Positions 1 through 21,689 of a stretch of 64,000 bases of DNA are shown here, one piece after another. Below the pieces are notes generated by a model. The model ran no database searches and was not told where the DNA came from. It was given only the letters and a program-made list of their open reading frames with translations. The position numbers and the translations under genes were made by a program. The first letter of the stretch is position 1. The number at the start of each line of letters is the position of its first letter. Origin of the DNA: Rhodospirillaceae bacterium. GTDB lineage: Bacteria; Pseudomonadota; Alphaproteobacteria; UBA828. Where the stretch lies: NCBI GenBank assembly GCA_002728135.1, contig PBVE01000010.1, positions 1 to 64,000 on the forward strand, written 5' to 3'.

Positions 1-2
1 GG

Positions 3-179: not shown

Positions 180-215
180 TTTTAAATTAAAATCTTTTTC
201 TTGTTTGAGGCCAGA

Positions 216-989: not shown

Positions 990-1022
990 GCAACTGATGA
1001 TTCTAATTAAGGATATTAATTA

Positions 1023-2726: not shown

Positions 2727-2780
2727 TTTTAATCTTGTAGCTAATTTTGTATGAGCGATAGAAATAAGGGAGTAAAAATT

Positions 2781-4187: not shown

Positions 4188-4224
4188 TTTAGGCTAGACT
4201 TAATTTGCAAGATTTGAGTGTTAT

Positions 4225-6030
4225 ATGGAATCTGTAATTATCAATCGGCGTGACTTGGAATTCCAAATCTTTGAGCTTTTCAAAGCAACTGAGCTGTGTA
4301 ATAGAGAGCGTTTTGTTGATCATGATGAGGAGTCATTAAAGGCAGCTCTAGATGTTACAATAAAGATTGCAGAGGAGGTTCTTTGGCCAAATGCATCTAT
4401 AGGAGACATACAAGAGCCTCATTTAAAAAATGGTCAGGTCTATGTGCCACAAGCTGTTCATAGGGGCGTTGCTGCTATAAGAGATGCAGGATATATAGCA
4501 GCTGGCCTTGATTACGATCGTGGAGGTATGCAGTTGCCTGCAATTTTATTGCAGGCCTGTTTAGGTATTTTTAAAGCCGCTGATGCTGCAACACCTGGTT
4601 ATCTAATGTTAACAAAGGCAGCTGCCAACCTACTTGATGTTCATGGCACCGAAGAACAAAAACGCCTTTATATGGAACCCATGTATGAGGGCCGTTTTCT
4701 CGGCACAATGTGTCTGTCTGAGCCTGATGTAGGATCCTCTCTTGCAGACATTAAATGTCGAGCGGAACCACAGCCTAATGGAAACTATTTATTGTCCGGT
4801 AATAAGATGTGGATATCAGGCGGAGATCAAGATATTTCTGAAAACATTATACATCTTGTTCTTGCCAAACTTCCTGATGCACCACCTGGTGTGAAAGGTA
4901 TTTCACTATTTCTTGTTCCGAAAATTTGCGTAAATCCAGATGGTTCGCTTGGTAAAGCTAATGACGTTAGTGTTGCTGGATTGAATCATAAAATGGGGTA
5001 TAGAGCAATATCGAATTGTCTGCTTAATTTTGGAGAGAAAAATGTTTGCGAAGGATATCTAATAGGAGAAAAGCATGGTGGTCTAGCCTGTATGTTTCAT
5101 ATGATGAATGAGGCTCGAATTGCCGTTGGTATATCTGGAGCAATGATTGGCTATACAGCATATATGCAAGCTTTAAATTATGCAAAAGATCGAAAACAGG
5201 GTAGGCCCATTGATAATAGAAACCCTGAGCACCCACCTGTTCCTATTATTGACCATCCAGATGTTAGAAGGATGCTTTTAAAACAAAAATCCTTTGTAGA
5301 GGGTGCTCTCGCTTTGTGTCTTATGTGTGCAAAATACCTTGACGAGTCTGAAACAGCTACAGAAAAAAATACTAAGTATCGTGCAGGTCTTCTGCTGGAG
5401 ATATTGACTCCTATCGCAAAAACATGGCCTGCAGAATTTTGCCAAGAGTCCATCAGTTTAGCTATACAAGTACATGGTGGATATGGGTATACAAAGGATT
5501 TTTCTGTAGAGAGGCTATACCGAGATAATCGGTTGAATGCAATTCATGAAGGGACATCAGGTATTCAGGCAATTGATCTATTAGGAAGAAAAGTACGAAT
5601 TGAAGAGGGTCTGGGATTCAACTTTCTTATGGAAGAAATAACTAGTGATATAGAATACGCATCTTCTTGGCCGGAATTAAAAATATTTACAACTACTTTG
5701 ATGGAGTACGTTTCAGATATAGTAAAAGCTACTAATAATATCAATGATGTAAGGGACGGTGGCCGTAAAGCGGACTCCCTTGCAAATGCATCACTTTACC
5801 TGCATGCACTTGGACACATAGTGGTCTCATGGTTGTGGTTAAAACAGTCAGTTGTAGCTTTTGAACAAATCACGAAGTCTCCAGACACCCAAGATGCGGA
5901 TTTTTACAAAGGTAAAATTAATGCCTGCAAGTATTTTTTCTTATATGAGCTTCCGCAGGTTAAGCCATTAATCAATCTTCTCTCAAATATTGACACAACA
6001 TGCCGTGAACACGGGCCTAAAATGTTTTAG
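4225..6030 (+). CDS. Acyl-CoA dehydrogenase, large DmdC-type
   Basis: FAD-dependent oxidation of an acyl-CoA to the 2,3-enoyl-CoA. At 601 residues it is about 200 longer than ordinary acyl-CoA dehydrogenases and has the extra C-terminal helical region seen in the DmdC/AidB-like group. Visible motifs are MCLSEPDVGSSLADI (FAD/substrate loop), GNKMWISGGDQ, and near residue 450 IHEGTSGIQAIDLLGRKV, which carries the usual catalytic glutamate. DmdC oxidises 3-methylmercaptopropionyl-CoA in marine bacteria, and with the ligase upstream a DMSP-type route is conceivable, but this subfamily also contains enzymes for other acyl-CoAs and no DmdA or DmdD is visible. It is the last + gene of the first cluster and converges on the next gene with only 7 bases between stops. 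Confidence 0.85.
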   Translation: MESVIINRRDLEFQIFELFKATELCNRERFVDHDEESLKAALDVTIKIAEEVLWPNASIGDIQEPHLKNGQVYVPQAVHRGVAAIRDAGYIAAGLDYDRGGMQLPAILLQACLGIFKAADAATPGYLMLTKAAANLLDVHGTEEQKRLYMEPMYEGRFLGTMCLSEPDVGSSLADIKCRAEPQPNGNYLLSGNKMWISGGDQDISENIIHLVLAKLPDAPPGVKGISLFLVPKICVNPDGSLGKANDVSVAGLNHKMGYRAISNCLLNFGEKNVCEGYLIGEKHGGLACMFHMMNEARIAVGISGAMIGYTAYMQALNYAKDRKQGRPIDNRNPEHPPVPIIDHPDVRRMLLKQKSFVEGALALCLMCAKYLDESETATEKNTKYRAGLLLEILTPIAKTWPAEFCQESISLAIQVHGGYGYTKDFSVERLYRDNRLNAIHEGTSGIQAIDLLGRKVRIEEGLGFNFLMEEITSDIEYASSWPELKIFTTTLMEYVSDIVKATNNINDVRDGGRKADSLANASLYLHALGHIVVSWLWLKQSVVAFEQITKSPDTQDADFYKGKINACKYFFLYELPQVKPLINLLSNIDTTCREHGPKMF

Positions 6031-6037
6031 TCACAAA

Positions 6038-7330
6038 TTAACTGATAAAACGTGGGATAGAAGCCAGTCCATCCTCTTCATCCAAAGGTGCTACAAATGC
6101 ATTTCCGCCTTTATGGCTTGAGGTATTGTCGTATTGTTTTAATTCAAGTCTTGCTATTTGGTTGCGGTGAACTTCATCTGGTCCATCAGCGAGTCTTAAT
6201 AATCTTGCTTTCGCGTAGGCATTTGCAAGACCGTAATCTGCTGTTACTCCAGCACCACCAAAAGCTTGTATTGCCCAGTCAATGACTTTACATGCCATAT
6301 TTGGTGCGGCAACTTTTATCATTGCAATTTCTTTCTTTGCAATTTTGTTGCCAACTGTATCCATCATATAGGCAGCTTTTAATGTAAGTAGTCTTGACTG
6401 TTCTATCATAATACGAGCCTCTGCAATTCTTTCTTGGGTAACTCCATGGTGTGATATCGGTTTACCAAAAGCTACTCTATCTTTTGTCCTACGGCACATT
6501 CGCTCTAGAGCTCTTTCTGCCAAGCCAATCAAACGCATGCAGTGATGAATGCGACCAGGCCCTAATCTACCTTGTGCTATTTCAAACCCTCGACCCTCAC
6601 CAAGTAAAATATTAGTCTTAGGAACTCTCACGTTGTTAAAAACTATTTCTGCGTGGCCATGTGGTGCATCGTCATAACCGAAAACAGGTAACATTCTTTT
6701 TATTGTTATGCCTTCGGAAGGAAGTGGCACAAGAATTTGTGATTGCTGTCTATAGCGGTCGCTATTATCAGGATCTGATTTGCCCATTAAAATTAAGATT
6801 TTGCATCTTGGGTCTAAGGCGCCTGATGTCCACCACTTTCTACCATTTATGATATATTCATCCCCATCTTGTTTAATACTCGTCTCTATGTTTGTTGCAT
6901 CAGAAGAGGACACTTCTACTTCTGTCATTGCAAAAGCTGATCGAATCTCTCCATTGAGGAGTGGCTCTAACCACAATTTTTTTTGTTCCTCTGTGCCATA
7001 TCTAACCAATACTTCCATATTCCCAGTATCTGGTGCCGAGCAGTTAAAAATTTCAGAAGCAAATGTAGATCGACCCATTTCTTCGCAGGATGGTGCATAC
7101 TCAAGGTTGGTAAGACCCGCACCATATTCACTGCTTGGTAGAAATAGATTCCACAACCCTTCAGAACGTGCTTTTGCTTTTAGCGACTCTACCATTTCGA
7201 TAGGTTGCCAACGATCATCTTTATCTAATTGAGCTAGCATTTCCTGTTCATTCGGATAAACGTGCTCAGACATGAACAAAGATACTTTATCCCGCAATGT
7301 CTTTGCCTTATTACTGTAATCAAAATTCAA
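6038..7330 (-). CDS. Acyl-CoA dehydrogenase of the ACAD10/ACAD11-LvaC type
   Basis: A 430-residue FAD enzyme of the acyl-CoA dehydrogenase superfamily. The conserved C-terminal half reads [46 protein letters not shown] and [17 protein letters not shown], all of which I associate with ACAD10/11 and its bacterial relatives such as LvaC. In that subgroup the enzyme works after a kinase has phosphorylated a 4-hydroxyacyl-CoA, leading by elimination and rehydration to a 3-hydroxyacyl-CoA. The kinase-like gene lies directly upstream in the same operon, 15 bases away. The start is a TTG at 7330 with AAGGAG about 9 bases upstream; no better ATG exists nearby. Substrate chain length is unknown. Confidence 0.87.
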
Positions 7331-7345
7331 TATTTTAACTCCTTT

Positions 7346-8419
7346 TTAAAATTCATTATTTACCATAGACCAAGCTTTGTCTGCTAGCTGGCGGGCAAGG
7401 TCTCTGCGAAGAAGAGCTTTTTCGCTAGTTGCGTTCCCTTGCGTTCCTCTATAATAAACGCCCTGAATAATTGCTGCAGCTCTAAACATTGCAAGGACTA
7501 GGTAAAAAACCCAGCTATTGATATGATTGCGCCCCGTATATTTGCAGTAAAGTTTTAAGTATTCATCTTCTTTTGGTATACCTTTTGTATTTGATTCAAG
7601 AATACGGTGAGCATTGTATGCATCTTGTGGCCAGTGATATGAAAGACAATTATAGGCAAGGTCAGACAAAGGGTCTCCAAGGGTTGATAATTCCCAATCT
7701 AATACTGCAATAACCTCTGGTTTGTTCTCATGAATAATCAAGTTTCCAAGGCGAAAGTCACCGTGTGCAATGGTAGTCTTTTCGTTTGATGGTGTTGCTG
7801 TTGGCAGCCAATTTATTAACTGATCCATTGATTCAACTGTTTCTGTTTGTGATGAACGATATTGATCTGACCATCGTTTAATTTGCCGAGATAAATAACC
7901 ACCAACTCTGCCAAAGTCCTCAAGTTCCAAAGACTTATAATCAACAGTATGTAGTTTTGCCAAAGTTATTGCCATAGATTCATATATAGCTGACCTTTCT
8001 TGGGTTGTAAGCTCGGGTAGTGAAACATTATCAAATACTCTTCCAAGAACATGCTCCATGATAAAAAACTCAGTTCCAATAATATTTCTATCAGAACAAA
8101 AGCCATACATCTTCGGTACAGGTACTTCAGAGTTTATGAGGGCTCCCATTATTTTATGTTCTCTATCAATTGCATGGGCGGATGGTAGTAATTTGCCAGG
8201 TGGTTTTTTTCTAAGAACAAAATTTTTGTCTGAACGTCCAGAAATTAAGAAAGAAGGATTAGACATGCCATTTTCAAATTGACTTATTTCTATTGGCGGC
8301 GAGAATTCAGCAACATTTTCAGTCATCCATTCACACAATTTATTAGTATCAAATTTGTGTTGACTTGCTATTTCAATTGTAAAATTGGTATAATTACTTT
8401 TTTGTACTGTTTTTGTCAT
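7346..8419 (-). CDS. APH-family phosphotransferase (ACAD10/11 N-terminal-like, LvaA-like)
   Basis: A 357-residue kinase of the aminoglycoside phosphotransferase/choline kinase fold. The catalytic loop is HGDFRLGNLIIH and the metal-binding segment is AVLDWELSTLGDPLSDLAY; the N-terminal half has the nucleotide-binding FVLRKKPPGKLL. These exact segments resemble the kinase half of mammalian ACAD10/11 and LvaA of Pseudomonas putida, which phosphorylates the 4-hydroxy group of 4-hydroxyacyl-CoA, rather than antibiotic resistance kinases. The adjoining downstream gene is the matching dehydrogenase, so the mammalian fusion is represented here as two genes. A small LvaB-like partner, needed by LvaA, is not seen. 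The start ATG at 8419 is preceded by GGGGA lying in the loop of an inverted repeat. Confidence 0.87.
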   Translation of the reverse strand: MTKTVQKSNYTNFTIEIASQHKFDTNKLCEWMTENVAEFSPPIEISQFENGMSNPSFLISGRSDKNFVLRKKPPGKLLPSAHAIDREHKIMGALINSEVPVPKMYGFCSDRNIIGTEFFIMEHVLGRVFDNVSLPELTTQERSAIYESMAITLAKLHTVDYKSLELEDFGRVGGYLSRQIKRWSDQYRSSQTETVESMDQLINWLPTATPSNEKTTIAHGDFRLGNLIIHENKPEVIAVLDWELSTLGDPLSDLAYNCLSYHWPQDAYNAHRILESNTKGIPKEDEYLKLYCKYTGRNHINSWVFYLVLAMFRAAAIIQGVYYRGTQGNATSEKALLRRDLARQLADKAWSMVNNEF

Positions 8420-8442
8420 TTTTTACTTTCCCCAAGTAAAAA
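8420..8442. promoter_or_regulatory. 9-bp inverted repeat at the kinase gene start
   Basis: Arms TTTTTACTT (8420-8428) and AAGTAAAAA (8434-8442) are perfect complements around the 5-base spacer TCCCC. The repeat sits directly before the minus-strand kinase ATG and inside the 96-base divergent region shared with the HyuA operon. Read on the minus strand, the loop holds GGGGA, the probable ribosome site of the kinase gene. It could be an operator for both divergent operons or an RNA hairpin affecting translation. The arms are AT-rich, so chance cannot be excluded. Confidence 0.35.
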
Positions 8443-8515
8443 GATTCGTAAGGATAGACATTAAAAGTAATATTATGAAAGAAAAATTGACTATTATTTG
8501 ATCTGGGAGGAAAAA

Positions 8516-10582
8516 ATGGGTCATATTTTGGGTGTTGATATTGGCGGAACATTTACTCACTTTTCATTAATTGACGGTAAAGGCGAAATTTCACTTTGGA
8601 AACAGGCAACTACTCCAAAGGACCCAGCAATAGCAGTAAAAGCAGGACTTACAGCTCTTGCTGAAGCTGAGGGGGTATCAATTGATGATTTTCTCAAAGA
8701 TTTAGATTTATTTGTCCATGGGCAAACAATAGCAACAAATACTGTGATTCAGAGGAATGGACCAAAAACAGCGTTGCTTTGTACTGAAGGTTTTCGAGAT
8801 GTTCTATATTTTCGTGATGGTTTTAAACCTGATCGATATAATATCAATTTACCTCGTTCAAAGGATTTTATCAGGCGTGATTCACGTTTGCCTATTAAGG
8901 AGCGTATGGATTATCGAGGAAAAGCTCTAGTTAAACTAGATGAAAAGTCTGTTCGTGATGCAGCAAAAATTTTAAAGAAACAAAAAGTTGAATCAGTTGC
9001 AGTGGCTCTTCTCTGGTCAATAATGAACCCAAAACATGAGAGACAAGTAAAGAAAATATTAGCTAAAGAGCTTCCTGGAGTTCCAGTTGTTCTCAGTTCA
9101 GATGTCTTACCAATGATTCGAGAATGGGAACGAACATCGAGCACTGTTCTCAGTGCCTATATCTTACCAAAAATTTCAACATATATGTTGGAGTTGGAGA
9201 ATTATTTAGAAAAAAATGGTTTTGCACAAAACCTTCTAATCATGCAGTTGAATGGAGGGACAGCTACCGTTAAGCAACTTCTGGATCGTCCTATTTATGC
9301 ACTTGCATCTGGGCCTGCCGCCGGACCAGCAGCGGGACTTTACTGTGCAGATAGGGTTGGTGTTAAAGATGTGATAACCATTGATATGGGTGGAACTAGC
9401 TTTGATGTATGTATGGTTACTGACGGACAGCCAGACCTAACAAAGGATTTAAGAGTGCATGATAATCCTGTAGGAGTGGCAGCGGTTAATGTGCATTCAA
9501 TCGGAGCCGGAGGAGGAAGTATAGCCTGGATAGACAAGGGAGGAGCACTCCAAGTAGGTCCAATGAGTGCGGGTGCAGAACCTGGACCTGCATGCTATGA
9601 AATGGGAGGGGAAAACCCTACTGTAACCGATGCAAACGTGGTTTTAGGATATATAAACCCTGATTATTTCCTTGGTGGCCGGAGAGAAATTAATCCTAAG
9701 GCATCATTTCGAGCAATTGAAAAGAAAATAGCTAAGCCCTTAGGTTTAACTACAGAAAAGGCGGCGGATGGAATATATCAAATTGTTAATACAAATATGG
9801 TGGATGCAATAAGGGTGGTTTCCGTTGAAAAGGGTATTGATCCTAGAGGTTATAGCCTTGTTGTAGGTGGTGGTGCAGGTGCTATCCATGCTGGAGCCCT
9901 AGGACGTGAATTAGGTATTAAGCAGGCAATTATTCCTCAATATACTGGTGTCTTTTGTTCTTATGGGATGATTGCAAGTGATGTTAGAACTGATCTAATT
10001 AAGGCATTTGCAACAAATACCTCAGATTTTGAGGTCAAGCGGGTTAATGAAATATTTGCTGAAATGGAAGCTGAGGCTGTTGCCGAGTTAAGGTCGCAAG
10101 GTTTCGCCCGTTCAAAAATAGAAATTTCTCGTTATGCGGATGCAAAATACTCCAATCAAATTCATGAGTTGACTGTCCCTATTCCTTCAAAGGGTAAATT
10201 AAAGAAATCGGATTCTGGGTCAATTGCCGAAGAATTCCATTCTTTACATGAGCGTTTGTTTACTTATGCCGTTCGCGAAAGTGCTGTTGACCTTTTCCAC
10301 TGGAGGATTACAGCCCGAGGTAAATTAGCGGAACGTGAGGCTGTAGTCCATAAACGCAGTCGAAGACCTGTCAGCGATGCTAAAAAGGGGACTCGAATGG
10401 TCTACTTTAACGAGTATGGGAAGTATCGTCGAACTAATATTTATGATGGTGATTTAATACGTTATGGGATGACAGTCGAGGGCCCTGCCATAGTAGAACA
10501 AGCTAATTCAACATTTGTAATACCACCCAAACAAACTCTGAAGGCGAATAAATATGGTGATTTCGTAATTGGAATAAGCTAA
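8516..10582 (+). CDS. HyuA-type ATP-dependent hydantoinase/carboxylase subunit (first copy)
   Basis: A subunit of the hydantoinase/oxoprolinase/acetone carboxylase superfamily, which uses ATP to activate a carbonyl substrate or bicarbonate; it acts in the cytoplasm with a HyuB partner. With the ATG at 8516, which follows GGGAGG, the protein has 688 residues (a TTG at 8498 is rejected). ASKHA-fold phosphate motifs are visible: GVDIGGTFTHF at about residues 6-16 and TIDMGGTSFDV near 290, then SIGAGGGSIAWID and the PGPACYEMGG turn. The segment VHGQTIATNTVIQRNG differs from the usual VHGTTTATNALVER seen in the second copy. It is followed at 12-base spacing by three consecutive HyuB genes, an arrangement I do not recognise. 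Confidence 0.92.
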   Translation: MGHILGVDIGGTFTHFSLIDGKGEISLWKQATTPKDPAIAVKAGLTALAEAEGVSIDDFLKDLDLFVHGQTIATNTVIQRNGPKTALLCTEGFRDVLYFRDGFKPDRYNINLPRSKDFIRRDSRLPIKERMDYRGKALVKLDEKSVRDAAKILKKQKVESVAVALLWSIMNPKHERQVKKILAKELPGVPVVLSSDVLPMIREWERTSSTVLSAYILPKISTYMLELENYLEKNGFAQNLLIMQLNGGTATVKQLLDRPIYALASGPAAGPAAGLYCADRVGVKDVITIDMGGTSFDVCMVTDGQPDLTKDLRVHDNPVGVAAVNVHSIGAGGGSIAWIDKGGALQVGPMSAGAEPGPACYEMGGENPTVTDANVVLGYINPDYFLGGRREINPKASFRAIEKKIAKPLGLTTEKAADGIYQIVNTNMVDAIRVVSVEKGIDPRGYSLVVGGGAGAIHAGALGRELGIKQAIIPQYTGVFCSYGMIASDVRTDLIKAFATNTSDFEVKRVNEIFAEMEAEAVAELRSQGFARSKIEISRYADAKYSNQIHELTVPIPSKGKLKKSDSGSIAEEFHSLHERLFTYAVRESAVDLFHWRITARGKLAEREAVVHKRSRRPVSDAKKGTRMVYFNEYGKYRRTNIYDGDLIRYGMTVEGPAIVEQANSTFVIPPKQTLKANKYGDFVIGIS

Positions 10583-10594
10583 GGGTGCAGAAAA

Positions 10595-12526
10595 ATGGCC
10601 TCAAAGAGGAGGGTGCACTCTGGATCGCTGAAAGTTGGCTCAAAGAAAATAAACAGAGTGCACAACAAGAGTAATAAGCAGTCTGTAGATCCGATAACTT
10701 TCTCAGTCATTCTCAATCGTTTCCGAACAATTGCGGAAGAAATGACTTTGACAATGGAAAAGACTGCTTGGACCTCAATAATAGCTTTAGCAAGAGACTT
10801 TTCATGTGCAATTTACGATTCTAAGGCTCGTCAGGTTTGTATAGCTGATGGTTTGCCAGTTCATACGAATTCAATGCATGTAGTTTTGCAAGAGATATCT
10901 AAAGCATTCGAAGGAAACATTAACGAAGGCGACGTCATTGTTTGTAATGATGCTTACAGTAGCAACACCCATGTTGGTGACCTAGTTACTGCCTGTCCAA
11001 TATTCCATAAAGGAAAACATATGTTTTGGAGTATGGCCAAGGGTCATCAGCTGGATTGTGGTGCATACGTGCCAACAAGTGTCCCTGCCAGTGCAAAGGA
11101 TGTTTGGCAAGAAGGATTACAACTGCCTCCAATTAAGTTTTATGAAAAAGGTGAGAGGCGTGATGATGTAATGCGGATGTATTTAGCGAATATGCGCTAT
11201 CAAGAATTGCTTTATGGGGACCTCATGGCACAATTGGGATCCATTTGGACTGGTGAACGAAGGTTAATTGAGTTGGCGAAGGAGTATGGTAACGGAGAAT
11301 TAAATAGATATATGGAGGCAATTTTTGATTACGCTGACCGTCGCATGTCTGAGGAAGTTCTCTCTATGCCAGATGGTGATTACGAGGGTGTATCTTGGCT
11401 GGATACGGACGGTGTAGGCGGTACTCACATTGAAGTTAAAGCTAAGGTCTCGATTAGGGGTGATAAAGTCCATGTTGACTACACTGGTTCTGCTGATCAA
11501 ACTGCCGGTGGTAATAATTGCTCCTACGGTGTTATGCAGGCTTCGGCTGCCGTTCCAATTATGCTCGCAACAGATCCATCTATACCGAGAAATGACGGTT
11601 GTATTCGTCATGTTACAGCTGATGCTCCAGCAGGTTCAGTATGTAATGCCCAGTATCCGGCTTCGACGGCTTTAGCTACAACTGGTCCAGGAGATACCTT
11701 ACAAGAAGCTGTCTGGAAGGCTCTTGCCCATGCTGTGCCTGATCGTGTTATGGGAGGAAATGGAAAAGATAGTAATCTACCAATGTTTTCGGGCAAAGAT
11801 TCTCGTGGAAAGAAGACAATAGATTGGGGCTGTATGTTTTTCAATGGTGGCCCAGCAGGTGGTGCCTGCAATGGAGTAGACGGCTGGCCATTACTTATTA
11901 CTTCAGGTGGGATGGGTGGACTTAAGATTGTTAGTGTCGAACTTAGTGAACTTCTTTATCCATTTCGGATTGATAGGCAGGAGATTGGTATTAATTCTAT
12001 GGGACACGGCGAGTATCTTGGTGGGCCCGGGGTCGAAATCCAAATAACTCCTACCAGTGGGGCAATAGAATGTAATCTATTTGGCGAGGGTCAGAGTAAT
12101 CCACCGCATGGTGTTCTTGGAGGGACTCATGGTATTGGCGGGAGTAGTTATAAAGAAAACCTAAAATCCGGAAAACGAACTTATTGCAGTTCAAAGGGTC
12201 GAATTATTATAAATGAAGGTGATGTGTGGGTCGGTTATTCGAGTAGTGGTGGTGGATATGGTGACCCCCTTAAGCGAGATCCAAAGGCAGTTTTAGAAAG
12301 TGTTTTTGCTGGATTAATTTCAATGCAATGTGCACGAGATGTCTATGGGGTTATAATCACGGCAGTGGAGATGAAAATTGACTCTGAGAATACCAAACTT
12401 TTAAGAAAAAAATTGTTTGCAGAACGTGGACCTTTAAAAATAACTCAGCCTAATCGACCCGGTGCATCAAATTGGGTTAAGAAGCGTCTAAGACCTGGGG
12501 ATGAGTATCTCATTGACCCCCAATAG
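10595..12526 (+). CDS. HyuB-type subunit, tandem copy 1
   Basis: Catalytic partner of HyuA in the hydantoinase B/acetone carboxylase alpha family; 643 residues. The family core begins at DPITFSVILNRFRTIAEEM, after a 31-residue basic, serine-rich tail. The putative metal-binding segment reads NDAYSSNTHVGD, whereas copies 2 and 3 have NDPYSGNTHVGD, so a proline and a glycine are changed next to the conserved His and Asp. The C-terminal GGGYGDPL and DVYGV motifs are intact, as is GVMQASAAVP. By eye it is roughly two-thirds identical to copy 2 over the N-terminal half. Because of the altered active-site neighbourhood it may differ in substrate or have a structural role. Confidence 0.9.
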   Translation: MASKRRVHSGSLKVGSKKINRVHNKSNKQSVDPITFSVILNRFRTIAEEMTLTMEKTAWTSIIALARDFSCAIYDSKARQVCIADGLPVHTNSMHVVLQEISKAFEGNINEGDVIVCNDAYSSNTHVGDLVTACPIFHKGKHMFWSMAKGHQLDCGAYVPTSVPASAKDVWQEGLQLPPIKFYEKGERRDDVMRMYLANMRYQELLYGDLMAQLGSIWTGERRLIELAKEYGNGELNRYMEAIFDYADRRMSEEVLSMPDGDYEGVSWLDTDGVGGTHIEVKAKVSIRGDKVHVDYTGSADQTAGGNNCSYGVMQASAAVPIMLATDPSIPRNDGCIRHVTADAPAGSVCNAQYPASTALATTGPGDTLQEAVWKALAHAVPDRVMGGNGKDSNLPMFSGKDSRGKKTIDWGCMFFNGGPAGGACNGVDGWPLLITSGGMGGLKIVSVELSELLYPFRIDRQEIGINSMGHGEYLGGPGVEIQITPTSGAIECNLFGEGQSNPPHGVLGGTHGIGGSSYKENLKSGKRTYCSSKGRIIINEGDVWVGYSSSGGGYGDPLKRDPKAVLESVFAGLISMQCARDVYGVIITAVEMKIDSENTKLLRKKLFAERGPLKITQPNRPGASNWVKKRLRPGDEYLIDPQ

Positions 12527-12560
12527 ACTGAATAAAGAACATTTATGGTAGGATTGTATA

Positions 12561-14507
12561 ATGGCTGAAAAGTCTGATTTAAACAAAAGACCCTCCCGTA
12601 TTTACGAAGGGTTTAATAGAATTGGTAAAAAAAATACCCACCGCCAATCAAGAACAAAGTATACAGTTGACCCCATAACATTCTCTGTAGTTCTTAACCG
12701 TTTTCGAACTATAGCGGACGAAATGACTCTAACAATGGAAAAAACTGCCTGGACCTCAATTTTAGCTTTGGCTCGGGACTATTCTTGTGCAATTTATGAT
12801 TCTCAGGCTCGCCAAGTTTGTATGATGGATGCAATTCCTGTGCATTGTAATTCAATGCATGTAGTGTTGGAGGAAATTGCTCGTACTTTTGAGGGTGATA
12901 TCCATGATGGAGATGTTATCGTGTGTAATGATCCATACAGCGGGAACACCCACGTAGGTGATTTTGTTACAGCCTGCCCTGTATTTTATAAAGGCAAGCA
13001 CATGTTTTGGAGCATGACGAAAGGTCATCAACTCGATTGTGGTGCATTTATCCCAACTAGTACGCCTGCAGCTGCAAAGGATGTCTGGCAGGAAGGTCTT
13101 CAGCTGCCACCAATAAAATTTTATGACAAAGGTAAGAGATGTGATGATGTGGTAAGAATGTATTTAGCAAATGTCCGCTGGACCGAATGGCTTTATGGTG
13201 ATCTTATGGCTCAACTTGGGTCTATTTGGATAGGTCGAAGGAGACTAATTGAATTTGCAAGACATTATGGGAATAATAAAACTGAACAATATATTGAAGC
13301 AATATTAGATTATGCAGATAAGCGCATGTCAGAAGAAATACGTTCTATGCCTGACGGAGATTATGAGGGTATTTCATGGCTCGATACCGATGGTCAGGGT
13401 GGGACAGATATTCCTGTAAAAGCTTTAGTCTCTATCAGAGATGACAAAGTCCGAGTAGATTTTGGTGGTTCAGCACCTCAGACACCAGGTGCAAATAATT
13501 CATCTTTTGGTGTTATGCAGGCTGCAGCAGGATTACCGGTTATGTTAGCTATAGATCCGTCTATTCCACACAATGATGGTTGCTTACGCCATATTGAAGG
13601 TGAAGCACCAGTAGGTTCAGTTTGCAACGCTAAATATCCAGGCTCTACAGCTCTGGCGACTATAGGGCCACACGACACGATGAAAGATGCTGCTTGGAAA
13701 GCCCTTGCAAAGGCGGTTCCAGAACGTGTAAGCGGTGGAAATGGGCGTGTTCATTGTGTTCCATTTTTTTCAGGTATAGATACAAGGGAAAATAGAAATA
13801 ATGGCTGGGGTTGTATGTTTTTTAATGGTGGACCTGGAGGGGGTGCGACCGCTAGTGTTGACGGGTGGCCACTAATAATGACCTCTGGTGCAATGGGTGG
13901 AACAAAAGTGATTAGTGTTGAGATGAGTGAGTTACTGCACCCAATGCGTATTGATAGGCAAGAAATAGGAACAGATTCAATGGGTCATGGAAAGCACCTT
14001 GGTGGTCCAGGAGTTGAAATACAGATCACTTCTACCAGTGGAACCATGGAATGTAACCTTTTTGGTGATGGTGCTAGTAACCCACCTCACGGTGTTCTAG
14101 GGGGGACAAAAGCTATAGGTGGTGGAAACTATAAAGAAAACCTAAAAACAGGAAAGCGAACCTATTGTTCCTCTAAAGGTCGAATGATGATTGAAAATAA
14201 TGATATTTGGGTCGGTTATTCAAGCGGTGGTGGTGGATATGGTGACCCATTAGAGCGTGAGGCAGAAGACGTTTTGGAAAGTGTATTTGATGGCATGCTA
14301 TCAATAGAATGTGCTCGAAGAGTCTATGGAGTATCAATAAATAAGGTGACTATGCAAATTGAAGTTAAAAAAACCAAAACTCTACGTAAAAGAATTTCTG
14401 AATCACGCAAACCATTTAAGATAACTGATCCAAATCTTCCGGGTGCTTCGGACTGGGTTAAAAAGAGACTGAGAACCGGTGACACGTATTTGATTGATCC
14501 ACAGTAA
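12561..14507 (+). CDS. HyuB-type subunit, tandem copy 2
   Basis: A 648-residue HyuB-family protein starting at the ATG at 12561, 34 bases after copy 1. It has a basic N-terminal tail of about 36 residues before DPITFSVVLNRFRTIADEM. The metal-site segment NDPYSGNTHVGDFVTACPVF has the usual form. Later family landmarks are KGHQLDCGAF, MYLANVRW, NNSSFGVMQAAAG and SGGGGYGDPLERE. It differs from copy 1 and copy 3 throughout, including AIDPSIPHNDGCLRH and a changed GIDTRENRNNGWG segment, so it is a long-diverged paralogue and not a recent duplication. It probably shares the single upstream HyuA, either in alternative complexes or in one heteromeric complex. Confidence 0.9.
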   Translation: MAEKSDLNKRPSRIYEGFNRIGKKNTHRQSRTKYTVDPITFSVVLNRFRTIADEMTLTMEKTAWTSILALARDYSCAIYDSQARQVCMMDAIPVHCNSMHVVLEEIARTFEGDIHDGDVIVCNDPYSGNTHVGDFVTACPVFYKGKHMFWSMTKGHQLDCGAFIPTSTPAAAKDVWQEGLQLPPIKFYDKGKRCDDVVRMYLANVRWTEWLYGDLMAQLGSIWIGRRRLIEFARHYGNNKTEQYIEAILDYADKRMSEEIRSMPDGDYEGISWLDTDGQGGTDIPVKALVSIRDDKVRVDFGGSAPQTPGANNSSFGVMQAAAGLPVMLAIDPSIPHNDGCLRHIEGEAPVGSVCNAKYPGSTALATIGPHDTMKDAAWKALAKAVPERVSGGNGRVHCVPFFSGIDTRENRNNGWGCMFFNGGPGGGATASVDGWPLIMTSGAMGGTKVISVEMSELLHPMRIDRQEIGTDSMGHGKHLGGPGVEIQITSTSGTMECNLFGDGASNPPHGVLGGTKAIGGGNYKENLKTGKRTYCSSKGRMMIENNDIWVGYSSGGGGYGDPLEREAEDVLESVFDGMLSIECARRVYGVSINKVTMQIEVKKTKTLRKRISESRKPFKITDPNLPGASDWVKKRLRTGDTYLIDPQ

Positions 14508-14534
14508 AATTACTTTGAGAAATATGAGGGACTG

Positions 14535-16478
14535 ATGATGTCAATAAAAAATGCTATAAAACAAAAATCGTCAAAGAAACCAAGAAAAATACAAAAATCA
14601 AACAAAAAAAGTGTGGCAAAAAAAAGTTCTAAATCGATTGATCCCATCACATTTGCTGTCATCTTAAATCGTTTTAAAACCATTGCTGATGAAATGACTA
14701 TTACGATGGAAAAGACGGCATGGACGTCAATCATCGCTCTTGCACGAGATTATTCCGTAGCAATCTATGACTACAAAGCTAGGCAGGTATGCATGCAAGA
14801 TGCCTTGCCGATTCACACAAACTCGATGCACGTTGTTTTGAAAGAAATTTCTGAAACTTTTAAGGATAATATCTACGAGGGCGACGTTATCGTAACAAAT
14901 GATCCGTATAGCGGTAATACCCATGTGGGTGACTTTGTCACAGCCACTCCTGTATTCCACAAAGGCAAACACATGTTTTGGAGCGTAGCTAAGGGTCATC
15001 AACTCGACGTGGGTGCATACGTCCCAAATAGCGTGGCTATACAAGCCTCTGATGTTTGGCAGGAAGGATTACAGTTACCCCCTATCAAATTCTATGAGAA
15101 AGGTGAACGCTGTGAAGACGTGGTGCGAATGTATTTGGCTAACGTCAGATGGCAAGAATGGCTATATGGTGATCTTATGGCACAGCTTGGATCCATTTGG
15201 ACAGGGGAAAGACGGCTGAAAGAGTTATCGAAGGAATATGGAAATGCAGAATTAGAAAAATATATGGAAAGCATACTTGATTATGCAGATCGTCGTATGT
15301 CTGAAGAAGTAAAATCATATCCTGATGGAGATTACCACGGAGTTTCATGGTTGGATTCTGATGGAAAGGGTAAGTCTAATATAAAAATAGGTGCCAAAGT
15401 CTCTGTCCGAGGAGACAAGATACATGTTGATTTTTCAAACTCTGACCCTCAAAACGCGAGCGGAAATAATGGCTCAAGAGGGGTGATGCAAGCTGCTGCG
15501 GGAATTCCAATTCTTTGCACAATAGATTCAACAATTCCCCACAATGATGGTGTTCTACGTCATATTACGGCAGATGCTCCAGTGGGTTCTGTCTGTAATG
15601 CAAAATATCCAGCATCAACTGCGGCTGCAACCGTTGGTCCTGGTGATACAATGCAGGAGGCCGTTTGGAAAGCACTGGCACATGCAGTCCCTGATCGTGT
15701 AATGGGTGGTAATGGTAAAGATGGTAATCTGCCAATGCTTCATGGAGTAGACCGAAGAGGTAAGAAAGATATAGACTTCGGTATGATGCTGTTTAATGCT
15801 GCTGCTGCAGGAGGGGCAAGTGCTACATGTGATGGCTGGCCATATTTTATGACTTCTGCAGGTATGGGTGGATTAAAGATCATGAGTGTCGAACTCTGTG
15901 AGTTATTCTACCCATTTCGTATCGACCGTCAGGAAATAGCTGCAGACTCTGTTGGGCATGGGAAATATATTGGTGGACCTGGAATTGATTTTTGTCTGTC
16001 TCCGGTTGGTGGCGGTTTTCAGTGCGAACTATTTGGTGAGGGACAAAGTAATCCCCCTTTCAGTGTAATGGGAGGTATGCCTGGGATTGGTGGAGGCAGC
16101 TATAAAGAAAATTTGAGGACAAAAAAACGCAAATATTATTCCTCAAAGGGTCGCTTTGAATTAGCCGCTAATGAAATATGGGTTGGTGTATCAAGTGGTG
16201 GGGGAGGTTATGGTGATCCACTGGAGCGGGAACCAGACGCAGTCCTCGAGAGTATAATAGATGGAATGTTAACCGTTGAAAGTGCACGTAACATATATGG
16301 TGTGATTATTAGTAAAAATCCAATGACTGTAAATCTTAAGGAAACAAAAGCATTGAGAAAAAAGAAGAGGAAAACACGTAAGCCACGTGAGATTACATCA
16401 CCTAATATACCCGGAGCAGCTACTTGGGTTAAGGAGAACTTAAGGGCTGGAGATGAATACCTACTAGATGCACATTAA
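14535..16478 (+). CDS. HyuB-type subunit, tandem copy 3
   Basis: A 647-residue HyuB paralogue. It has the longest and most basic N-terminal tail of the three, with about 16 Lys/Arg in the first 37 residues before DPITFAVILNRFKTIADEM. The NDPYSGNTHVGDFVTATPVF segment is intact. Differences from the other copies include KGHQLDVGAYVPNSVA (Asp-Val for Asp-Cys), a changed GGACNGVDGWP region (AAAGGASATCDGWP) and FCLSPVGGGFQCELFG. ATG codons at 14535 and 14538 are both possible starts; GAGGG lies about 6 bases upstream. The stop codon overlaps the start of the next SDR by one base (TAATG), indicating coupled translation. Confidence 0.9.
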   Translation: MMSIKNAIKQKSSKKPRKIQKSNKKSVAKKSSKSIDPITFAVILNRFKTIADEMTITMEKTAWTSIIALARDYSVAIYDYKARQVCMQDALPIHTNSMHVVLKEISETFKDNIYEGDVIVTNDPYSGNTHVGDFVTATPVFHKGKHMFWSVAKGHQLDVGAYVPNSVAIQASDVWQEGLQLPPIKFYEKGERCEDVVRMYLANVRWQEWLYGDLMAQLGSIWTGERRLKELSKEYGNAELEKYMESILDYADRRMSEEVKSYPDGDYHGVSWLDSDGKGKSNIKIGAKVSVRGDKIHVDFSNSDPQNASGNNGSRGVMQAAAGIPILCTIDSTIPHNDGVLRHITADAPVGSVCNAKYPASTAAATVGPGDTMQEAVWKALAHAVPDRVMGGNGKDGNLPMLHGVDRRGKKDIDFGMMLFNAAAAGGASATCDGWPYFMTSAGMGGLKIMSVELCELFYPFRIDRQEIAADSVGHGKYIGGPGIDFCLSPVGGGFQCELFGEGQSNPPFSVMGGMPGIGGGSYKENLRTKKRKYYSSKGRFELAANEIWVGVSSGGGGYGDPLEREPDAVLESIIDGMLTVESARNIYGVIISKNPMTVNLKETKALRKKKRKTRKPREITSPNIPGAATWVKENLRAGDEYLLDAH

Positions 16479-17254
16479 TGGCGAGCTTGCTAGATGGAAA
16501 AAAAATAATTGTAACCGCAGGGGCTAGTGGGATAGGAGCTACCACGGCTAAGCTTATGAGAGACTGTGGGGGTCGGGTGTCTGTTTGTGACATTGATAAA
16601 CGGGCATTAGATAGATTTGCAGATCTAAATCCTGACATCTTATGTTTGCACTGCGATGTTGCAGATTCTCAAGCAGTTAGTCGGTATGTTGAAGAGACAT
16701 TGGAGGCCTTTGATGGTCTAGACATACTAGTCAACAATGCTGGAAGTGCTGGCCCAACAGCTGTTGCAGAAGAGATTGAAACTAAAGATTGGGACGCAAC
16801 GATCAGCGTAAATTTATCTGCCCAGTTTTACTTTGTTCGTGAAGTCATTCCTTATCTAAAGAAGCAACATAGTGGCTGTATTGTTAATATGTCGTCGGCG
16901 GCTGGTCGCCTAGGATTACCGATGAGAGCACCATATGCAGCTGCTAAGTGGGGAGTCATAGGTCTAACGCAGACACTTGCTATGGAACTTGGAGAATACA
17001 ATATTAGAGTAAATGCCATCTTGCCCGGGGCAGTGGAGGGAGAAAGAATGGATAATGTCCTTAAAGAAAAGGCAAGGATGCTCAACTTGGACATGGCTAG
17101 TATAAGGAATAATGAGACACAAAATGTGTCAATGAAAAGAATGATTGAACCTGAAGAAGTGGCGGAATTGATTATTTTTCTATGTTCAAATAATGGACGA
17201 TCAATTAGTGGACAATCTCTGGGAGTATGCGGAAATATAGAAACCCTGCGTTAA
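16478..17254 (+). CDS. Short-chain dehydrogenase/reductase in the Hyu operon
   Basis: A 258-residue classical SDR. The nucleotide motif reads TAGASGIG near residues 13-20, so the first glycine of the usual TGxxxGxG is alanine; NNAG near 89-92 and the catalytic Tyr-Lys in YAAAKWG are intact. Its ATG overlaps the stop codon of HyuB copy 3, which strongly ties it to that operon. It probably oxidises or reduces a hydroxy/keto group of the compound handled by the HyuA/B proteins. The coenzyme and substrate cannot be deduced. Confidence 0.88.
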   Translation: MASLLDGKKIIVTAGASGIGATTAKLMRDCGGRVSVCDIDKRALDRFADLNPDILCLHCDVADSQAVSRYVEETLEAFDGLDILVNNAGSAGPTAVAEEIETKDWDATISVNLSAQFYFVREVIPYLKKQHSGCIVNMSSAAGRLGLPMRAPYAAAKWGVIGLTQTLAMELGEYNIRVNAILPGAVEGERMDNVLKEKARMLNLDMASIRNNETQNVSMKRMIEPEEVAELIIFLCSNNGRSISGQSLGVCGNIETLR

Positions 17255-17276: not shown

Positions 17277-17723
17277 ATGGCTAGAAATGATTTTTCTTTT
17301 TTCTTTGGGTTTAGAGTCCGGTACTCAGAGGTAGATGGTCAAATGATTGTTTTTAATGCACATTATCTTACTTACTTTGATACTGCTATTACAGAGTATT
17401 TTAGAAATTTACCTTATGACTATAGGGGACAGGTTGAGCGAACAGGAGAGGATTATCACACTGTTAAGACTTTGGTCGAATATTACGCACCAATAAGTTT
17501 TGATGATGAAATAGACGTAGGGGTTAGAGTTTCGCGCATCGGGAGGTCAAGTTTGACATTTAAACTTGAAATTTATCCTAAAAATAACGACTCATCATTA
17601 GCCAGTGGAGAGGTCATCTGGGTGAATACAAACCAAAAAACTCATAAATCATCTACATTACCCGAAGAATTAGTCGAAAAAATAAATTTTCTTGATGGTG
17701 AGAGTATAAATTTGTTGGCATAA
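17277..17723 (+). CDS. Hotdog-fold acyl-CoA thioesterase (4HBT/YbgC-FadM type)
   Basis: A 148-residue single-hotdog protein that should hydrolyse an acyl-CoA thioester. The N-terminal VRYSEVDGQMIVFNAHYLTYFD matches the family pattern, with the catalytic-type aspartate at residue 20 and the following hydrophobic helix. Length is normal for this family. It starts 22 bases after the SDR and ends 27 bases before the second HyuA, so it belongs to the same run. Its presence means that the operon handles a CoA ester at some step, which argues against a pure hydantoin pathway and for an aromatic, ketone or organic acid route. The acyl group is unknown. Confidence 0.85.
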   Translation: MARNDFSFFFGFRVRYSEVDGQMIVFNAHYLTYFDTAITEYFRNLPYDYRGQVERTGEDYHTVKTLVEYYAPISFDDEIDVGVRVSRIGRSSLTFKLEIYPKNNDSSLASGEVIWVNTNQKTHKSSTLPEELVEKINFLDGESINLLA

Positions 17724-17750: not shown

Positions 17751-19772
17751 ATGTGGCATGTTGGCATTGATGTGGGAGGGACTTTTACCGATCTTTTTGC
17801 AGAAAATAGTGAAACAAAAGAAAAAAGATCTGCTAAAGTTTTGACGACAACTTCAGACCGTTCATTAGGCGTAATCGATGCTTTAAACTCAGCATTTATA
17901 CCTCCAAACGAAATTAATGTTCTAGTGCATGGGACTACTACTGCAACTAACGCTCTTGTTGAGCGTAAGTATCCTCCAGTGGCAATGATTACCACAGAAG
18001 GATTCAGGGATGTAATTGAGATTGGAAGACAAAGAAGACAGCATCTGTTTGCACTACGTCAAAAGAGACCTGAGCCAATAGTGCCAAGGCGATTAAGGTT
18101 TACACTTAATTGCCGCCTTTCTGCGTCAGGTAAAGATATACGGGAATTTGACCATGAAGAAGCAAGGCAAATTGCTCAACGAATAAAAGATCTAAATATA
18201 AATTCAGTAGCGATATGTTTGATTAATTCTTATGTGGATGACCAACATGAAAAAATAATGCGTGAGGTGCTCTTGCAAGAGCACCCAGAATGTTATGTCG
18301 CACTTTCAGCTGAAACTGTTAGAAAGTTTAGGGAGCATGGAAGATTCTCTACAACTGTTGTGCGAGCTGCATTGCTTCCAGTAATGTCACAATATTTTTC
18401 AAGTTTATCAACAGCACTTGATGAAAGTGGCTTTAGAGGGTCTTTATTAGCATTAAAAAGTAATGGTGGGATGATGGGTGTTGACCTTGCTATTGAAAGA
18501 CCCGAAGAATTAGTTGAGTCAGGGCCTGCTGGTGGTGTTGCATATGCGAGATACCTAAGTCAAACAACTAATTTTCCAAATATAATCCATACTGATATGG
18601 GTGGAACAACATTTGATGCATCAATAGTGGATCAGGGTGAAGGATTGATAACCCACGATTATGAATTGGAATGGGAAGTGCCAATCACAATTCCAATGCT
18701 TGATATAAGGAGTGTTGGGGCTGGTGGTGGCTCTATTGCTTGGGTAGATGCGGGCGGTTCACTCCGTGTTGGGCCTCAAAGCTCTGGTTCAGAGCCTGGC
18801 CCAGCTTGTTATGGAAGAGGTGGTAAAGAGGCAACAGTCACTGATGCTAACTTTATTCTTGGTAGATTGAACCCCACCCTAGGAGACAAGATGAGGCTTG
18901 ATTCCAAGGAAGCTTTGTTAGCAATAGAGGGTGTTGCAAAAAAACTAGATTTAGACCCTCTTGAGACAGCTGAAGCCATCATCTCTATTACTTGCGAAAA
19001 TATGGCTCAAGCAATTAAGCTGGTATTAACTGATCGTGGGAGAGATCCCAGAGATTTCATACTTGCTAGCTTTGGTGGTGCTGGCCCTATGCACGCATGT
19101 CAGATTGCGAGAGCGATGAATATACCGCGAATAATTGTTCCAACACATGCAGGTGTTGCCTCTGCTTTTGGTGCTACAGCTATGGATATACGTCATGATT
19201 TGGAAGGATTTTATTATTCACCTTTGGCTGAAACCAACTTTGATCACCTTAATGAATTGTTTGGGAAACTTGAAGACCAGGGTCGCCAATTACTTACCCG
19301 TGATGGCGTTAACGATGAAGACATGTCTCTTCAAAGACATGCACAGATGCGTTATATCGGTCAATTTTGGGAAGTGATGACTCCTCTTGGAGGTCAGTTA
19401 ATAAACAAAGATTCTATTAATGATATTGCCGATGCCTTCCACATGGAGCACGAATCTGAACATGGTGTTAAATCTCCAGATTTTCCAGTTGAATTTGTCA
19501 GTATAGGTATCACAGCACAAGGTAGTTTTAAAAAGTCTAGATCTACCGAGTTTTCTGAAATTTCCTCAGAAACCATCAAAGTTGGAGAGAGAAATGCATT
19601 TTTTTCTGGGTCGTGGGAGGATGTACCTATTTTTGTAGGTGAAAAAGTTTCTTCGGGAACAAAGATTGAGGGTCCAGCAATTCTTGAATATAAGCACTCA
19701 GAAACAGTCTTACCTCCTCAAACCTATGCAGAAGTAGATCAAGCAGGTAATTTAATTATAACTCTAGCCTAA
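17751..19772 (+). CDS. HyuA-type ATP-dependent hydantoinase/oxoprolinase subunit (second copy)
   Basis: A 673-residue HyuA with the orthodox family motifs: GIDVGGTFTDL at residues 5-15, VHGTTTATNALVERK near 60, TTEGFRDVIEIGRQRR, HTDMGGTTFDAS near 283 and SVGAGGGSIAWVDAGG. It looks like standard N-methylhydantoinase A/5-oxoprolinase A proteins, more so than the first copy. The ATG follows GGAG at a normal distance. It is paired with its own HyuB 25 bases downstream, so the operon holds one A:B pair plus one A:BBB set. ATP-dependent opening of a cyclic amide or carboxylation of a carbonyl compound are the family's known reactions; which applies is open. Confidence 0.92.
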   Translation: MWHVGIDVGGTFTDLFAENSETKEKRSAKVLTTTSDRSLGVIDALNSAFIPPNEINVLVHGTTTATNALVERKYPPVAMITTEGFRDVIEIGRQRRQHLFALRQKRPEPIVPRRLRFTLNCRLSASGKDIREFDHEEARQIAQRIKDLNINSVAICLINSYVDDQHEKIMREVLLQEHPECYVALSAETVRKFREHGRFSTTVVRAALLPVMSQYFSSLSTALDESGFRGSLLALKSNGGMMGVDLAIERPEELVESGPAGGVAYARYLSQTTNFPNIIHTDMGGTTFDASIVDQGEGLITHDYELEWEVPITIPMLDIRSVGAGGGSIAWVDAGGSLRVGPQSSGSEPGPACYGRGGKEATVTDANFILGRLNPTLGDKMRLDSKEALLAIEGVAKKLDLDPLETAEAIISITCENMAQAIKLVLTDRGRDPRDFILASFGGAGPMHACQIARAMNIPRIIVPTHAGVASAFGATAMDIRHDLEGFYYSPLAETNFDHLNELFGKLEDQGRQLLTRDGVNDEDMSLQRHAQMRYIGQFWEVMTPLGGQLINKDSINDIADAFHMEHESEHGVKSPDFPVEFVSIGITAQGSFKKSRSTEFSEISSETIKVGERNAFFSGSWEDVPIFVGEKVSSGTKIEGPAILEYKHSETVLPPQTYAEVDQAGNLIITLA

Positions 19773-19797: not shown

Positions 19798-21597
19798 ATG
19801 GAAACTGATAGTATCAAAACCAAAGAAATAAATGACTTGGATCCAGTTACTTTTGAGGTATTACGAAGTCATTTTGATTTTTGTTGCGAGCGTATGAGTA
19901 AGGTTTTACAGAAAACTGCATTTTCGGCAATCTTGAGCGATATGCTCGATTTCTCTCATGCTGTATACGATTCTGATATTAGGCTCGTTTCTCAGGCACC
20001 AGGTTGCCCAATACATATGGCAGCAATGCATTTTGCTGCGGAGGCTTCAGTAGCAAAATACGGAAAAGAGAATTTTAACCCCGGTGATGTAGTCATATTA
20101 AATGATCCCTTTGAAGGTGGAACTCATATCCCTGATACAACGTTTACCATGCCGATTTTTGTTGGCGATGAACTTTTAGGTTTTGCTGTAAGCCGTGGTC
20201 ATTGGCAAGATTTAGGTGGAGGGGCCGCCGGTGGACAATCATTTGGCACTCATATAGCAGGCGAAGGACTACGGATACCGCCTCTAAAGCTTTTTAATGA
20301 ATACAAAATAAATGAAGATCTTTTAACTTTAATTAAAAATAATACCCGTTGCCCTGAATATATTGAGGGCGATATTCAAGCCCATATGGGTGCATTAAAA
20401 GTGGCTGAACAAGAATTTATACGTGGAGCGGAGAAATATGGCATTGATACAATAAAAATCGCTATGCGTGAATTGATAGCCTATACCAATCGTATAAGTC
20501 GCAGCCGTATTTTAGCTATACCTGATGGTGAATATTCGGTTTCAGATTTTGTTGATACTGATGGTTTTAGTGATAAACCAATTCGTCTAGAGGTAAAGAT
20601 AATTATCAAAGGCGAGTCATTAGTGGTTGACTTCACTGGTTCAGACCCTCAATGCATTGGTGCTATTAATTCTCCATTAGCTAATACATTCTCGGCAGCT
20701 TACTTAGCACTTCGTTTCTACCTATGCCCCGAGGCACCTGCGAATTCTGGACTTTTTGATGCCGTTGATATTATTTTACCTGATAACTGTTGGCTGAATG
20801 CCAAATGGCCAGCTCCTACAATCGGTTGTACGACTGTTACTGCGGCAAAAATCAATAGTGCGATCTGGCTTGCCATGAGTGAAGCTATGCCTGAAAATGC
20901 CATTGGTGGAACCATGTCGGATATTAATTGGTTTGTATGTGCTGTTACAGACCCTGAAGATAATCGTCAAACCGTCTTTTCTGATTTGCCGGCCGGAGGC
21001 TGGGGAGGCATGAATGATATGGATGGTACTAGTGTTCGTTTTGACCCAACAGGAAATTGCATGAATTTATCAGCAGAGGTGGCAGAACTCTGTTATCCAA
21101 TTATCTATGAGGCTTTTGATCTAAGAAAGGATTCTGCTGGTCCTGGTATTCACAGAGGAGGCCTTGGTGCTAGATTACAATTTCGTTTTCTGGGGGATGC
21201 GGAACTGAGTATAGAAACATCCAGAACACTACAGGGTAGCCCCGGCGTTGAAGGTGGTAAGGAAAGTGCTAGACAACGCTTATATAAAATTAGCCTAGAA
21301 GGAGAGTCTGAGGTTATAGGTGGGCTCGCTGATGATGGTGTGTGGCACAATCCACTTCTCGCTGCATATAGATTCAGACCAGGAGAGGCGTTTCGTATAG
21401 AGACAGGTGGTGGTGGAGGTTGGGGAAGACCATTTGAAAGACCTGTGAACAAGGTATTAGATGACGTTCTTGATGGCTATATATCTATTGAGGCTGCAGA
21501 GAACTCTTATGGTGTAAAGATTGATGCTGGAACTAAAACTATCGACCATGAGATTACCCAAAATCTTAGGAATACAAATTTGCAGGTAGGTGAATAA
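19798..21597 (+). CDS. HyuB-type subunit paired with the second HyuA
   Basis: A 599-residue HyuB of ordinary family length. The core starts at DPVTFEVLRSHFDFCCERM after only 14 residues that are not strongly basic, unlike the three tandem copies. The metal-site region LNDPFEGGTHIPDTTFTMPIF has the common His-Ile-Pro-Asp form, against HVGD in the tandem set, so it belongs to a different HyuB branch. The C-terminal ETGGGGGWGRPFERP and AENSYGV are family landmarks. With the preceding HyuA it should form a complete ATP-dependent enzyme on its own. Confidence 0.91.
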   Translation: METDSIKTKEINDLDPVTFEVLRSHFDFCCERMSKVLQKTAFSAILSDMLDFSHAVYDSDIRLVSQAPGCPIHMAAMHFAAEASVAKYGKENFNPGDVVILNDPFEGGTHIPDTTFTMPIFVGDELLGFAVSRGHWQDLGGGAAGGQSFGTHIAGEGLRIPPLKLFNEYKINEDLLTLIKNNTRCPEYIEGDIQAHMGALKVAEQEFIRGAEKYGIDTIKIAMRELIAYTNRISRSRILAIPDGEYSVSDFVDTDGFSDKPIRLEVKIIIKGESLVVDFTGSDPQCIGAINSPLANTFSAAYLALRFYLCPEAPANSGLFDAVDIILPDNCWLNAKWPAPTIGCTTVTAAKINSAIWLAMSEAMPENAIGGTMSDINWFVCAVTDPEDNRQTVFSDLPAGGWGGMNDMDGTSVRFDPTGNCMNLSAEVAELCYPIIYEAFDLRKDSAGPGIHRGGLGARLQFRFLGDAELSIETSRTLQGSPGVEGGKESARQRLYKISLEGESEVIGGLADDGVWHNPLLAAYRFRPGEAFRIETGGGGGWGRPFERPVNKVLDDVLDGYISIEAAENSYGVKIDAGTKTIDHEITQNLRNTNLQVGE

Positions 21598-21689
21598 TAT
21601 AGAGTATGCAAGGTCGAGCTTGCTGTAACTGACTTCCACAGCAAAGTTTGTTCAAGAATGGTAGATATGTAATTAAAGGTTTCTATAAG

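Follow-up and report, generated by a model that had tools for sequence, protein, structure and literature searches.

A stretch of 64,000 nucleotides from a marine alphaproteobacterium (a Rhodospirillaceae bacterium; contig PBVE01000010.1, positions 1 to 64,000; hereafter the window, from genome G000) contains one gene for HyuA, the ATP-binding subunit of hydantoinase-type enzymes, followed on the same strand by three diverged genes for the HyuB subunit. We conclude that this arrangement, with one A gene to between three and five B genes, is a real variant architecture that has been maintained by selection. The HyuA gene (A1, 688 amino acids, 8516–10582, + strand) has the Pfam domains Hydant_A_N, Hydantoinase_A and Hydant_A_C, and a ribosome-binding-like GGGAGG lies just 5' of its ATG. 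The HyuB paralogues B1 (643 amino acids, 10595–12526), B2 (648 amino acids, 12561–14507) and B3 (647 amino acids, 14535–16478), all on the + strand, follow after gaps of exactly 12, 34 and 27 bp. The original prediction, made from the DNA letters alone, had given three HyuB genes of 643–648 residues with gaps of 12–34 bases, and its coordinates, lengths and gaps proved exact. It was also right that the copies have diverged with their core motifs complete: each is a full-length Hydantoinase_B protein (472–481 bits) with the metal ligands D/H/D/H (D68, H126, D129 and H151 in B1), and the pairwise identities among B1, B2 and B3 are 71, 68 and 62%. The same gene order and context occur in an independent metagenome-assembled genome from a sister species in the same genus (G001, PAWF01), so the set is not an assembly artefact.

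The count of three B genes was too low. The contig starts inside a fourth HyuB gene (B5), whose C-terminal end occupies bases 1–177 of the window (+ strand; bases 3–173 match positions 585–641 of the B-subfamily profile with 55.9 bits), and a complete B5 is present at the corresponding place in the sister species, directly upstream of a short-chain dehydrogenase/reductase (SDR) gene. A fifth B fragment of the same subfamily was found at the start of another contig (G000:C27:2-181). With one A1 and three to five Bs, the system departs from the HydAB two-subunit hydrolases, which are recognized by a cluster with a single A gene and a single B gene. In total, the 2.14-Mb genome has 17 HyuA and 20 full HyuB genes plus two B fragments, and the surplus of HyuB is the tandem sets. 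This density of HyuAB genes is unusual for a genome of 2.1 Mb, and some relatives have 40 or more first-look candidates.

In one of our genome searches, sets of three B copies were seen only within the same family. G001 has A1-B1-B2-B3 plus two more Bs (B5 and B6) upstream of the SDR gene SDR0, making five Bs. In a second genus of the family (G014) there is an A1-B-B set, with a third B on another contig. In a third genus, g5 (G008, G013, G015 and G020), three Bs are scattered through a similar cluster, and where the contigs let it be seen, one adjoins A1, one lies between a cupin gene and SDR0, and one is downstream of an acyl-CoA dehydrogenase gene, ACAD1; in G008 they spread over about 25 kb (117–142 kb of a single contig). 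Like G000, all six genomes have exactly one close orthologue of A1 each (76–95% identity). A scan of about 85,000 species yielded 32 loci of the subfamily, and outside the family most of them consist of one A and one B, adjacent in either order. The exceptions are a solirubrobacterial locus in which a single A is accompanied by two Bs, and a genome (G147) with six members of the wider subfamily, in which one B has no adjacent A. Of 299 genomes sampled from the phylum, G000 alone has the subfamily. Our literature searches on HyuAB enzymes and HyuB copy number, which covered open-access papers, turned up no mention of several HyuB genes per HyuA.

The B paralogues mostly predate the genera. In a maximum-likelihood tree, B3 groups with copies from g5 and G014 (support 100/99), which lie downstream of ACAD1 in g5 and next to A1 in G014; B2 groups with those g5 copies that adjoin A1 (95/91); and B5 and B6 group with a third g5 copy (100/100). 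Related genera have orthologues of B2 and B3 (B5 in two), in some cases in tandem and in others not. In g5 only the B2, B3 and B5 types were seen, up to 23 kb apart, and no member of the B1 clade. A recent expansion specific to the strain or genus was rejected, because forcing the genus's six B1–B3 copies into a single clade gave P = 0.0009 in the approximately unbiased (AU) test, though an origin of B1 from B2 within the genus is not rejected (AU test, P = 0.10). The original prediction had held that an order restricted to this strain would make a simple recent expansion more likely; the order recurs in G001 and the recent expansion is rejected, so that objection falls away.

Selection on the individual copies is strongly purifying. 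Between G000 and G001, the ratios of nonsynonymous to synonymous divergence (dN/dS) are 0.017 for A1, 0.050 for B1, 0.057 for B2 and 0.083 for B3, and within g5 they are 0.04–0.12; several dS values are near saturation, which makes these ratios rough. The values of 0.05–0.08 for B1–B3 bear out the earlier suggestion that each copy is under selection, and together with the intact metal ligands they exclude decay of the B copies. Between B1, B2 and B3 themselves, dS is saturated. The identity of G000 to G001 is a mosaic: about 96–98% over window positions 1–7200, 70–88% over most of 7200–14600, 88–100% over B3 (14601–16400), and 60–85% in the remaining region. B3 and the left flank were therefore exchanged recently between the lineages by recombination, and A1 and B1 were not. 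The breakpoints of the B3 swap fall almost exactly at gene boundaries. This replacement of B3 had been missed in the original prediction, as had the recurrence of A-B-B sets in other subfamilies (see below).

The fixed differences among the B copies are enriched at the substrate pocket. In the caprolactamase subunit CapB, Asp41, His99, Asp102 and His124 are needed for the metal (PMC8453981), and none of these four ligands is missing from any B that we examined in the subfamily, including B1, B2, B3 and B5; the vicinal Cys410-Cys411 of the CapB pocket is absent from the Bs. At positions corresponding to the CapB pocket, B2 and B3 share 33% of residues, B1 and B2 47%, and B1 and B3 80%, and differences fixed among B1, B2 and B3 are enriched there (6 of 15 pocket sites versus 63 of 559 columns; P = 0.0036). 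The contact surfaces are conserved. The N-terminal helix that faces CapA is 85–91% identical between copies, versus 65–72% elsewhere, and the region matching the CapB dimer core (CapB 129–174) is 76–80% identical. A CapB–CapB dimer is the core of the CapA–CapB–CapB–CapA caprolactamase tetramer (PMC8453981), which makes cores of two different Bs conceivable here. An AlphaFold model of B2, built from a 13-sequence alignment, had a pLDDT of only 45 and was not used.

If A1 is obliged to serve several Bs, it is expected to evolve slowly relative to them. A comparison is provided by a second, distant HyuA–HyuB pair further along what appears to be the same operon, A4 (17751–19772, +) and B4 (19798–21597, +; 30% identical to B1), in which A4 has its own B4 and the ratio stays 1:1 in related clusters. 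Among the single A–B pairs of the subfamily that we compared, the ratio of B distance to A distance has a median of 0.99, and for A4/B4 in the same genomes it is 0.64, whereas the medians against A1 are 1.25 for B2, 1.48 for B3 and 1.77 for B5. At matched divergence (A identity of 76–84%), single pairs give 0.78–1.06, compared to 0.94–1.37 for B2, 1.17–1.65 for B3 and 1.65–1.72 for B5. Within g5, A1 is 97.5–98.4% identical versus 92.6–93.8% for A4, whereas B4 and the Bs resemble each other in identity; slow evolution of A1 is therefore the main source of the effect.

Each genome has one A1 orthologue and three to five B paralogues. We infer, with a probability of roughly 0.5, that a single ATP-dependent A1 is shared among several catalytic Bs of different specificity, in a catabolic cluster of lactam type. 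A1 and its Bs, including the upstream B5, would then be ATP-dependent ring-opening amidohydrolases of the hydantoinase/oxoprolinase/caprolactamase type with one common activating subunit. A1, with ATP (and bicarbonate, as in caprolactamase), would activate a cyclic amide in its lactim form, with phosphorylation as the simplest means, and hand it to a docked B, whose D/H/D/H metal site would hydrolyse it. Conservation of the A1 and B–B core contact surfaces, while the B pockets differ, suggests that A1 could form alternative (A·Bi)2 enzymes, possibly also A·Bi·Bj·A, that differ in substrate range. Ring opening would yield amino acids, which may then pass to an omega-aminotransferase, a CoA ligase, SDRs, ACAD1 and a 4-hydroxyacyl-CoA kinase/dehydrogenase pair. 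More tentatively, A1 might act as a hub for four or five distinct Bs, mixed B–B cores included, with a combinatorial substrate range, and the same solution (A-B-B) would have evolved several times in HyuAB subfamilies.

Several points weigh against the reading with a shared A1 and lactam-type substrates. The pocket test uses only 15 residues, mapped by homology from a 4 Å structure, and since B1 and B3 share 80% of them, not every pair of copies differs. The pairs behind the rate ratios are not independent, which makes those ratios supporting evidence only, and B2 shows no excess between G014 and g5 (0.94–0.99). A1 itself has the phosphate-1 motif DIGGTFTH, the phosphate-2 motif DMGGT and the adenosine motif GAEPGP, and so retains the ASKHA ATP motifs of the superfamily (DxGGTxTD, DMGGT, GxxPGP) save for D15H in the window copy. 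Where A1 has His15 (CAC, 8558–8560), the other 31 HyuA proteins matched in the loci examined, including every listed A1 orthologue, all have Asp; the His is either a real change, which could weaken the use of ATP, or a consensus error. Finally, no single neighbouring gene proves that the substrates are lactams, and the enzyme may be a carboxylase or act on another amide.

The original prediction had offered two outcomes, one heteromeric complex or a set of interchangeable subunits. The close spacing of the genes, which are probably co-transcribed, would suit an obligate complex in which A1 binds two or three different Bs in fixed positions (for example an A–B1–B2–A core), with separate steps or with one B structural, and so would the conservation of the region matching the CapB dimer core, which would permit mixed dimers. 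We nevertheless consider such a complex unlikely. All copies have a complete metal site, no B1-type copy was seen in g5, where the Bs lie up to 23 kb apart, and the variation in B number, from A-B-B plus one in G014 to five in G001, fits a fixed stoichiometry poorly. Alternative subunits are favored over an obligate 1:1:1:1 assembly because the paralogues are unlinked from A1 in relatives, their divergence is biased toward the pocket and A1 evolves slowly; "functionally distinct" describes them better than "interchangeable". The possibility that the Bs all carry out one reaction, so that extra copies only raise the level of B or persist by recombination, seems doubtful to us, although B1 and B3 have most pocket residues in common and the recent exchange of B3 (amid flanks of 70–88% identity) shows that recombination occurs readily. 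Selection for dosage does not require copies to diverge to 62–71% identity with saturated dS, and the orthology kept across genera, the strong purifying selection on each copy and the fixed differences enriched at the pocket also speak against this possibility.

We regard two further explanations as improbable. One is that the extra Bs pair with other HyuA proteins encoded among the 17 in the genome, as the large number of HyuA genes and the separation of some B genes from A1 in relatives might suggest. But A1 is the only one belonging to the A subfamily that adjoins this B subfamily elsewhere, and the other HyuA genes equal the other HyuB genes in number, so no A is left over. The other is that the enzyme is a carboxylase of the acetone/acetophenone type. 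Those enzymes belong to the same superfamily, and the Bs exceed CapB by 60–70 residues, being extended at both the N and the C terminus like the carboxylases (lengths from PMC8453981), yet there is no gamma-subunit gene in the cluster (window 1–26868), Acetone_carb_G matches the genome just once, next to another HyuB on contig C15, and CapA/CapB models score about 2–3 times as high as Apc models. The gene adjoining B5/B6, considered as a gamma-subunit candidate, is a cupin. The C15 match belongs to a carboxylase-type set (G000:C15:52310-55858), in which the gamma-subunit-like gene (33 bits) adjoins a HyuB and a HyuA.

A-B-B sets also occur in other HyuAB subfamilies, in G000 itself (contig C25; positions 3341–9168 of locus L069), G002 (positions 645–6462 of L072) and G067 (positions 4775–10262 of L071). 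The two Bs within each set are 59–60% identical, and the sets of G000 and G002 are orthologous. Given these independent sets, we regard the architecture as a variant that recurs among HyuAB systems of the known kind, and not as a new kind.

Upstream of A1 are SDR0 (201–989, +; Pfam adh_short), whose place is conserved in G001, G008, G014 and G020, an acyl-CoA ligase (1023–2726, +; AMP-binding), a class III (omega) aminotransferase (2751–4187, +; Aminotran_3) for which the top PDB hits are omega-transaminases entered under the name 4-aminobutyrate transaminase, and ACAD1 (4225–6030, +). On the opposite strand, an acyl-CoA dehydrogenase of the ACAD11/LvaC type (6038–7330, −; best PDB matches ACAD11, 479–488 bits) and an APH-fold kinase of the ACAD11-N/LvaA type (7346–8419, −; ACAD11 kinase domain, 289–293 bits) match the two halves of mammalian ACAD11, making up a split 4-hydroxyacyl-CoA system like LvaA/LvaC. 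Past B3, the operon appears to go on with SDR1 (16478–17254, +), which overlaps the B3 stop codon by one base, a 4HBT thioesterase (17277–17723, +) and A4–B4. Beyond these are a PhyH dioxygenase (21648–22604, +), a dethiobiotin-synthase-like protein (22643–23323, +) conserved in the sister species (71%), which may serve either biotin synthesis or the pathway, and a dimethylglycine/sarcosine dehydrogenase-like (DMGDH-like) flavoprotein (23396–25852, +). The clusters of relatives include a branched-chain-type ABC transporter. A scan of window positions 1–30000 against Rfam gave no match, and promoter and terminator scans gave signals no better than shuffled sequence.

These neighbors fit the opening of a cyclic amide, because caprolactam degradation pairs the CapAB lactamase with an omega-aminotransferase (PMC6061476), and the LvaA–LvaC/ACAD11 type takes 4-hydroxyacyl-CoAs into beta-oxidation in P. 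putida and mammals (PMC12440821). A route from a gamma-lactam-like ring through an amino acid, an oxo acid and a 4-hydroxyacyl-CoA to beta-oxidation is coherent but unproven. The kinase/dehydrogenase pair was not seen in the g5 clusters and so may not belong to the core pathway. A divergent DMGDH/sarcosine-dehydrogenase-like gene, a relative of the one in the window, adjoins single A–B pairs of the same subfamily in other lineages (L053, L054, L056 and L057), and two of those four loci also adjoin a cupin–helix-turn-helix (HTH) regulator. A creatinine/N-methylhydantoin pathway, an idea raised by this neighbor, was set aside: the genes of 209–210 codons after two single-B relatives encode cupin-HTH regulators, not N-carbamoylsarcosine amidases.

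Among proteins of solved structure, those closest to A1 and the Bs are caprolactamase, a fused N-methylhydantoinase and ketone carboxylases. The kinase and acyl-CoA dehydrogenase of the window are of the type found in the lvaABCDE levulinate operon and mammalian ACAD10/11, but here they are an opposite-strand neighbor that was not seen in the g5 clusters, and we know of no HyuAB in those systems. ATP-dependent hydantoinase/N-methylhydantoinase HyuAB resembles our locus in A–B gene order, domain content and lack of a gamma subunit, but has one B per A; the DMGDH-like neighbor hints at N-methyl chemistry, and no carbamoyl-sarcosine amidase was recognized in the genes examined. Caprolactamase CapAB (Pseudomonas jessenii, PDB 6YRA) is homologous in both subunits, along almost the whole of each (A1 496 bits, B3 335 bits), with the same metal ligands and ATP motifs and an omega-aminotransferase alongside, but CapAB has one A and one B, and the scores of A1 (718) and the Bs (370–390) are far below the NCBIfam equivalog cut-off (1000). 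In acetophenone carboxylase ApcABCDE, subunit duplication likewise gave a new architecture in the same superfamily, but there the A-type subunit was duplicated (alpha and alpha prime), whereas in the window it was the B-type, and no gamma or epsilon subunit was seen in the window cluster. To our knowledge, every characterized enzyme of the superfamily has a single B per A, and Apc, on the A side, is the only case of expansion by duplicated subunits. If our interpretation is true, a stable combination of one A with many Bs would show how bacteria extend a costly ATP-dependent hydrolase to more substrates by duplicating its catalytic half alone, and what the abundant, mostly uncharacterized HyuAB proteins do in marine bacteria becomes a question that a few co-expressed subunits can test.

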